This document shows positions 4,354 to 6,074 of a stretch of 64,000 nt of DNA, in pieces. The stretch comes from Candidatus Magnetocorallium paracelense (GTDB taxonomy: Bacteria > Nitrospirota > Thermodesulfovibrionia > Thermodesulfovibrionales > Magnetobacteriaceae), in the NCBI GenBank assembly GCA_029001845.1, contig JAREWP010000087.1, positions 1 through 64,000 on the forward strand. The letters are read 5' to 3'. Each line of letters starts with the position of its first letter. The first letter of the stretch is position 1. A model generated the notes under the pieces. That model ran no database searches and was not told where the DNA came from. It worked only from the letters and a program-made list of their open reading frames with translations. The translations under genes were made by a program, and so were the position numbers.

Positions 4354-4523
4354 TTGCTTTCTTTACTGTCGGCTATGTATAATTGACATATCGGATAACG
4401 AATAAAGGGATTCCTGATTATGGAATTATCCGACAACCGGTATCGATGTTTTTACACTACATATACATTTTCTTTAATTCCTGAATCCCTCTTAATAATT
4501 TTTTTCTGCCACGGAGGTGCATA

Positions 4524-4811
4524 ATGAAGAGATTACGGATTTTTTCGTTTTTTTTACTGACTATTTTAATAATGCTTGCATCTGTTCAAACGTCATTTTC
4601 CAAGGAACGTACGATTACTCTAAACGTTCCGGGCATAACATGATCCGCATCGGCAAAGAGAGTAAGTTCTGCTCTCAAAGAAGTTGAAGGTGTTATTAGT
4701 GCAGATGCTCAGGTGGAAACAAAAGCAGCTACCGTTACATTTGACGATTCTAAAACAAACATGGAAAAGCTAAAAGAAGTGCTTATGGATAAGGGATTTG
4801 CCGTAAAATAA
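4524..4811 (+). CDS. Predicted selenoprotein: periplasmic HMA (MerP-like) metal-binding protein with UGA-encoded metal ligand
   Basis: From ATG 4524 (good Shine-Dalgarno GGAGGTG at 4513-4519) the frame runs 96 codons to TAA at 4809, interrupted only by TGA at 4641-4643 (codon 40). Residues 1-26 form a signal peptide ending near QTSFSK. The rest is a complete HMA/MerP-type ferredoxin fold: TITLNVPGIT-U-SASAKRVSSAL, then EVEGVISADAQVETKAATVTFD, and LMDKGFAVK at the end. In the family the motif is GMTCxxC; here the first Cys is UGA and the second position is Ser. A hairpin with loop AGUUC follows the UGA at bacterial SECIS distance and matches the one in selD of this window. Coding continuity on both sides of the UGA, the domain match and the shared hairpin argue for Sec rather than a stop. 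A recent nonsense mutation in a MerP gene is the alternative. Confidence 0.8.
4641..4676 (+). promoter_or_regulatory. SECIS-like element of the HMA selenoprotein
   Basis: UGA (4641-4643) is followed by a stem of GAGAGUA (4658-4664) with UGCUCUC (4670-4676), including one U-G pair and closing an AGUUC loop (4665-4669). The loop starts 21 nt after the UGA with G as its second base, which fits the known bacterial SECIS rules. The apical AGUUCUG string is also present in the selD hairpin. Confidence 0.75.
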
Positions 4812-5081: not shown

Positions 5082-6074
5082 ATGAGACTCTTTATCTTTG
5101 CCGGTTCATCTCATATCAAAAACGCTCTCAAGGAAGTCCTTACTTCTTTGGGCTGTAATGACACTGTTTTCCTGAATCCTAACGATAATCCGCCAACTGT
5201 CCTGAAAGAGGAAGTTAATGATCTCTTTTTACAAAATAGTGTTATATTTGTAGAAATCAATGATCAAGATTTAAATGGTATCGAATTATACAGAGAGCTT
5301 GGAAAAGACTCTTCTTTCAGAAATGTTCCGGCAATCGCATTAGTTCATTCCACGGTAAAGGATCATATTATATGCACTGCCTTTGAGGAAGGCTTCTTCG
5401 ATCTCCTTGCGTATCCTTTCCAAAAAAGAGAGATTCAGGCTCGACTCCATGCCTCAACCAGGCTTAACAGGGAGAGAGAGGCAAGAGTATCCTGTGAGAA
5501 AGATATCATATCATTAACAGAGGGTGCAGAAAAGAGAGGATTACAATACAGTCATAATGTTGATCTGTTGAAAGATGTTTCAGGCGTTGACGATCTGACC
5601 GGAATCCTGAATCATGCTTCCTTCCTCAAATTACTGGATAAAGAGTGGAAAACTGCGACAAGATTTTCCAGACCTGTCTCTCTTGTATTGGCTGCTTTGG
5701 ATTTCTTTAGAATCTTCAATGAAACCTATGGCTCTGATAAGGGAGATCGATGCCTTAAAGATGTTGCGATGGCGATGAAAAGGGCTATTAAAAGACCGGG
5801 AGATGTTGTAGCAAGGTATGGCGGTGATCAGTTTGCCATTATATTACCGGAAACTTCCCATGAGGGCGCCTATCACATGGCGGATATTATTCGGTCTTCC
5901 GTAAAATCACTTGAAATTAAAAATAATAGATCTCCCATTAGCAACTTCCTGACTGTCAGTATCGGGGTTGCGTCTGTTATGATTACAACAGGGTCGGATA
6001 TGGAATCTTTGGTAAACACCGCAAACAGGGCGCTTCATCAGGCAAAAACGGAAGGAAGAAATCGTATTTGTTAA
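5082..6074 (+). CDS. Receiver-like/GGDEF-family protein with GGDQF motif
   Basis: The 330-residue protein has an N-terminal receiver-like domain (about 1-125) and a GGDEF domain (about 165-330). The receiver looks degenerate: where the phospho-acceptor Asp is expected the sequence is FVEINDQDLNG (Glu instead of Asp), and the usual Lys-Pro pair is AYPF. The GGDEF signature reads RYGGDQFAIILPE, with Gln in the fourth position. The DDLTGILNHASF start of the domain and the later SIGVAS strand are intact. Known active cyclases mostly carry GG(D/E)EF, so activity is uncertain. The protein could be a phosphorylation-independent cyclase or a c-di-GMP/GTP sensor. It is 47 bp upstream of gmd with no obvious terminator between. 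Confidence 0.85.
   Translation: MRLFIFAGSSHIKNALKEVLTSLGCNDTVFLNPNDNPPTVLKEEVNDLFLQNSVIFVEINDQDLNGIELYRELGKDSSFRNVPAIALVHSTVKDHIICTAFEEGFFDLLAYPFQKREIQARLHASTRLNREREARVSCEKDIISLTEGAEKRGLQYSHNVDLLKDVSGVDDLTGILNHASFLKLLDKEWKTATRFSRPVSLVLAALDFFRIFNETYGSDKGDRCLKDVAMAMKRAIKRPGDVVARYGGDQFAIILPETSHEGAYHMADIIRSSVKSLEIKNNRSPISNFLTVSIGVASVMITTGSDMESLVNTANRALHQAKTEGRNRIC

Follow-up and report, generated by a model that had tools for sequence, protein, structure and literature searches.

A predicted exported HMA-domain selenoprotein family with a single selenocysteine and no cysteine, and its possible role in binding soft metals

Heavy-metal-associated (HMA) domains usually bind metal by two-thiol chelation. 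Proteins of this kind that contain selenocysteine (Sec) have already been catalogued. A 2008 Global Ocean Sampling (GOS) study listed a Sec-containing 'Mercuric transport protein MerP' with 2 sequences, and the entry gives no motif and no Cys homologues (PMC2398784). A 2026 review lists a UxxU metal-binding family (NF041115) and C/SxxU mercuric transport families, and it is also in this review that Sec has been proposed as a metal ligand in related metal-resistance selenoproteins (PMC13188914). The frame described here lies in a 64,000-nucleotide stretch of DNA from Candidatus Magnetocorallium paracelense (the window) and is predicted to encode an exported HMA protein in which Sec takes the place of the first metal-binding Cys. 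Its features are listed below, each with its basis in parentheses.

4513..4519, plus strand: Shine-Dalgarno-like GGAGGTG ahead of the ATG (read from the sequence)
4524..4811, plus strand: whole predicted selenoprotein gene, 95 codons and TAA, with UGA as Sec at codon 40 (sequence and homologues)
4524..4601, plus strand: putative Sec-pathway signal peptide, residues 1-26 (positive N-terminus, hydrophobic core, SFS/KE)
4617..4799, plus strand: HMA domain, residues 32-92 (PF00403 and MerP structure matches)
4641..4643, plus strand: UGA codon 40, predicted Sec replacing the first Cys of GMTCxxC, with Ser43 at +3 (homologues)
4658..4676, plus strand: predicted bacterial SECIS hairpin in the coding sequence, stem 4658-4664/4670-4676, loop AGUUC 4665-4669 (covariation and codon tests)

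The ribosome site is strong, the GGAGGTG ending 4 nt before the ATG at 4524, and the frame runs to the TAA at 4809-4811 with a single in-frame TGA, that of codon 40. An earlier note on this DNA had claimed a signal-peptide and HMA frame broken solely by a UGA at the first metal Cys, and this was confirmed by the match of the window protein to PF00403 at 54.2 bits, which is above the curated cut-off of 24.8 (Pfam). The UxxS motif that it had also claimed is present as GIT-U-SAS in the context VPGIT-UGA-SAS, and the rest of the HMA domain is complete. With UxxS the window protein does not have the two-Cys CxxC metal site of HMA domains. A profile of the family described below matched MerP structures (1afi at 8e-18 and 1osd at 3e-17), and structure prediction from the single window sequence gave no usable model (pLDDT 52). 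The signal-peptide cleavage site was placed by eye; the homologues have a hydrophobic leader similar to that of the window protein, and the mature protein would be about 70 residues long. The gene stands alone between a YdjM-like membrane protein upstream (1735-2616) and a GGDEF protein downstream (5082-6074). It is overlooked by gene callers because its key residue, Sec, is encoded by UGA. Other UGA-joined frames in the window were scanned and no convincing second case was found.

An initial search of 60 related genomes turned up further frames with one internal UGA. Eight such frames were made into a profile, which was run first on 176 genomes of the order and next on 396 of the phylum; a 27-row profile was then searched against 230 genomes of the class. 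In the class search 27 loci scored at least 77 bits, and the next match below them was an ordinary CxxC protein at 69 bits. Homologues with UGA or Cys at codon 40, which the earlier note had named as a check, are exactly what these loci are: 26 have UGA and one, in genome G153, has Cys at the same codon. The 26 UGA loci are spread over 21 genomes, which belong to six families of the order. Two copies occur in five of these genomes, arranged in tandem in G005. All the Sec members inspected come from the order of the window; a lower-scoring phylum match, G178 (57 bits), also has a TGA in its stretch. Only three columns are invariant in the 27-row alignment, namely, the start Met, the Sec/Cys position, and one Gly.

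The genome of the window has a paralogue on contig C53 (L120:4019-4318) with a UGA at the same codon, in the motif UPDT. Close to its C-terminus this paralogue has another in-frame UGA (LRDN-UGA-YSTV), aligned with the Gly that precedes the last loop's aromatic residue; since there is no evident SECIS for this UGA it may be the stop. Besides these proteins, an HMA protein from a Chloroflexi MAG (L009:51-239), without a signal peptide, has a UGA at the second Cys (GITC-DG-UGA) and is possibly a different Sec-containing HMA protein.

One objection is that the UGA ends a 39-residue peptide and that the remainder is decayed or chance sequence, whether because of a pseudogene, a sequencing error or an ordinary stop, and this is the reading that automated callers would give. 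Against it, UGA occupies this codon in 26 loci from separate assemblies, and dN/dS past the UGA is 0.04-0.30 in 12 pairs of loci. Judged by these values the sequence past the UGA is under purifying selection. The homologues show neither decay past this codon nor an ordinary stop at it, UGA or Cys being conserved.

The hairpin bears on the same question. The earlier note had claimed a SECIS-like hairpin after the UGA, and one is present: GAGAGUA-AGUUC-UGCUCUC has 7 pairs and an energy of -9.6 kcal/mol, and its loop begins 21 nt after the UGA. The bacterial SECIS model has a G in the first two loop positions, a loop 16-37 nt from the UGA, a stem of 4-16 bp and an MFE of -7.5 or lower (PMC13188914), and the loop AGUUC, the distance, the stem and the energy of the window hairpin all fall within it. 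The energy alone is unremarkable (z about -1) and uninformative by itself, a point in favor of the objection. It is covariation across the homologues, not energy, that backs the predicted element. In the family the hairpin has seven pairs and a loop opening with AGU and starts 14 nt past the UGA, a distance that is fixed in nearly all members. Covariation was counted on 25 distinct sequences with 500 shuffles. Helix cells were paired in 84.6% of cases as against 69.8% in the shuffles, double-sided changes numbered 23 as against 8.8, and the covariation score was 0.409 as against 0.190. These values were reached by 0/500 shuffles, registers slid by 1-3 columns scored below, and RNAalifold independently recovered five pairs of the helix.

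Because the SECIS stem is coding, synonymous codons were permuted within each gene. The stem pairs observed were 153, whereas 2000 such shuffles gave a mean of 124.7 and a maximum of 143. The loop Ser codon is AGT in 22/22 of the Ser-bearing members as compared to 24/189 of the other Ser codons (Fisher 2e-17). In four members (the paralogue in the window's own genome, G100, G166, and G168) the loop deviates from AGU yet retains a G. Of the seven stem pairs, 3-5 are found in ordinary CxxC homologues, all of which lack AGU at the loop site.

The earlier note expected selB and selC in the genome and both were found, selB at C9:57028-58902 (363 bits) and tRNA-Sec (selC) at C103:97761-97854 (74.6 bits). 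Of the 21 Sec-bearing genomes, 20 have SelB above the cut-off; the one without such a match is G171, a draft genome whose genus mates have SelB. Purifying selection past the UGA, a covarying SECIS and the presence of selB and selC all argue against an ordinary stop, a pseudogene or a sequencing error, and with the conservation of the UGA they rule it out for practical purposes, the chance left to it being very slight. Reassignment of UGA in another genetic code is also rejected because several members of the family stop at UGA and because tRNA-Sec and SelB are present. The frame 4524-4811 almost certainly encodes a selenoprotein. The claim that the protein is a periplasmic selenoprotein, its first metal Cys replaced by Sec and its second Cys gone, is thus strongly supported by the homologues, by selection and by selB/selC.

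The mature Sec members contain no Cys (26/26 proteins), the second Cys of the motif being gone in every one, and no conserved His or Met was found in these 26 proteins in place of the lost ligand. Sec is consequently the sole soft ligand or nucleophile common to all members. Since the second Cys is lost, the two-thiol mode is impossible, as the earlier note had argued from the Ser of the window protein. At +3 most members have Ser or Thr, and Ala, Lys, and Asn also occur. The only Cys orthologue, that of G153 (L111:3971-4279), has a lone Cys in CxxR. Its genome retains selB and selC, and 6/7 of the SECIS stem pairs are still present and may be a relic of a SECIS; the stem and the retained genes would fit a recent change from Sec to Cys. 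In the tree G153 lies within a supported Sec clade, and two changes of the Sec label are required, the number that one gain and one reversal would give; short domains and several long branches make this tree indicative only. Selection appears to keep one chalcogen, not two. The suggestion of the earlier note that one selenolate may capture mercury or act in redox is compatible with these observations.

We propose that SelB and tRNA-Sec would decode the UGA at codon 40, aided by the hairpin 15-33 nt downstream, and that the signal peptide would carry the protein across the membrane. The mature protein would be a MerP/CopZ-type HMA domain with Sec for the exposed first Cys, that is, with one selenol and no thiol. 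The selenolate could capture a soft ion, such as Hg(II) or Cu(I), by one protein ligand, and the captured ion could be handed on by ligand exchange or held between two proteins (Se-M-Se). We give a probability of about 0.5 to this reading of the exported, SelB-decoded protein as a periplasmic soft-ion binder that acts through a single selenolate, of which we infer the metal step, and we rank it over its main rival, a redox role. The HMA fold, the GITU loop and the MerP relatives on plasmids all point to soft metals. That the Cys-free domain binds or hands over soft metal by its lone selenolate, either alone or as a Se-M-Se dimer, is put forward more tentatively; we know of no description of single-selenolate metal binding for the HMA fold.

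The soft-metal reading is weakened by the loss of the two-thiol mode with no Cys or conserved His or Met in its place, and it is also weakened by the genomic context. No neighbour of the Sec-HMA genes was found to be conserved beyond the genus level, and no mer or cop genes were found beside the Sec-HMA loci. MerA is above the cut-off in one of the 21 Sec-bearing genomes and has no match at E 1e-120 in the window's own genome, and HgcA is weakly enriched (11/21 Sec-bearing genomes vs 50/155 others, p = 0.09). A tie to the mer operon, to MerA or to HgcA was therefore either not found or weak. At L097, L121, L122, and L123 ordinary MerP-like CxxC relatives adjoin MerR-like and MerA-sized genes in clusters that these loci share among them, unlike the Sec family, and these clusters are likely mer operons.

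That the Sec family has no tie to metal operons is also in favor of the redox alternative, according to which metal binding has been lost and the HMA scaffold now serves a redox selenoprotein. Peroxide, an organic hydroperoxide or some metalloid would oxidise the selenol, and thiols, either of low molecular weight or on a partner, would regenerate it, as in other one-chalcogen UxxS/UxxT selenoproteins. An invariant Sec with the second ligand lost in 26/26 members agrees with such a role, and so does a +3 residue that is most often Ser or Thr, because UxxS is listed for arsenate reductase and for a peroxiredoxin-like family (PMC13188914). However, the Ala, Lys, and Asn seen at +3 show that this residue is not strictly conserved, and no partner redox gene is conserved nearby. 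In addition, no HMA domain is known to us that acts as a redox catalyst. On this balance a redox function is a real possibility that falls short of even odds, and binding of a soft ion is still the reading that we prefer.

In two genomes of one genus (L108 and L109) the Sec-HMA gene lies 23-30 nt after an ArsR-like regulator and a TSUP-like permease follows about 270 nt downstream, both families being named by eye. This arrangement is a possible metal- or sulfur-responsive operon. The same flanking pair, together with a small exported protein that has one Se and no Cys, could also be taken to mean that the protein handles selenium, either storing or delivering it or forming selenosulfide adducts with a partner. 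We consider this improbable because each protein has a single Se, the flanking pair is confined to one genus, and nothing else indicates selenium handling.

What the family offers is a metallochaperone-type fold from which both thiols have been lost and in which exactly one selenol has been kept, in many lineages of a bacterial order. It thereby isolates the role of selenium: either a soft metal can be trapped by a single selenolate, or the fold has become that of a redox protein. The small size of the mature protein makes the choice between metal and redox directly testable. The family escapes gene callers, which leaves gaps in the metal and selenium inventories of these genomes.

Among the known systems, MerP (TIGR02052) resembles the window protein in having a signal peptide and one HMA domain at about the same length. 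The best annotated tblastn matches of the window protein are MerP, on plasmids, at 44% identity, and TIGR02052 ranks top in NCBIfam with 64.7 bits, under its cut-off of 92.55. The difference is that MerP has two Cys whereas the window protein has one Sec, and the window gene lies outside a mer operon. The Sec-containing MerP of the GOS study, compared by description only, is likewise a predicted MerP-type selenoprotein and may belong to the same family. NF041115 is likewise an HMA-type metal-binding selenoprotein but has two Sec instead of one; the window protein scores 40.4 bits against its cut-off of 95, and no match over the cut-off was found among the 22 genomes searched. NF045683, a MerT/CopZ fusion-like heavy metal transport selenoprotein, matches the HMA part of the window protein (39.9 bits, cut-off 375). 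This family and the putative C/SxxU mercuric transport protein (PF02411) are similar to the window protein in that Sec occurs in a metal-transport protein, but unlike it they have a MerT part. The earlier note had regarded the lone selenolate as a novel idea, and this holds only in part because Sec-MerP and UxxU proteins were already listed (PMC2398784, PMC13188914, NF041115, NF045683). A literature search of partial coverage turned up no exported HMA family with a single Sec and no Cys. What would set the Sec-HMA family apart from the catalogued Sec-MerP and UxxU proteins is that it is a Cys-free monoselenol.
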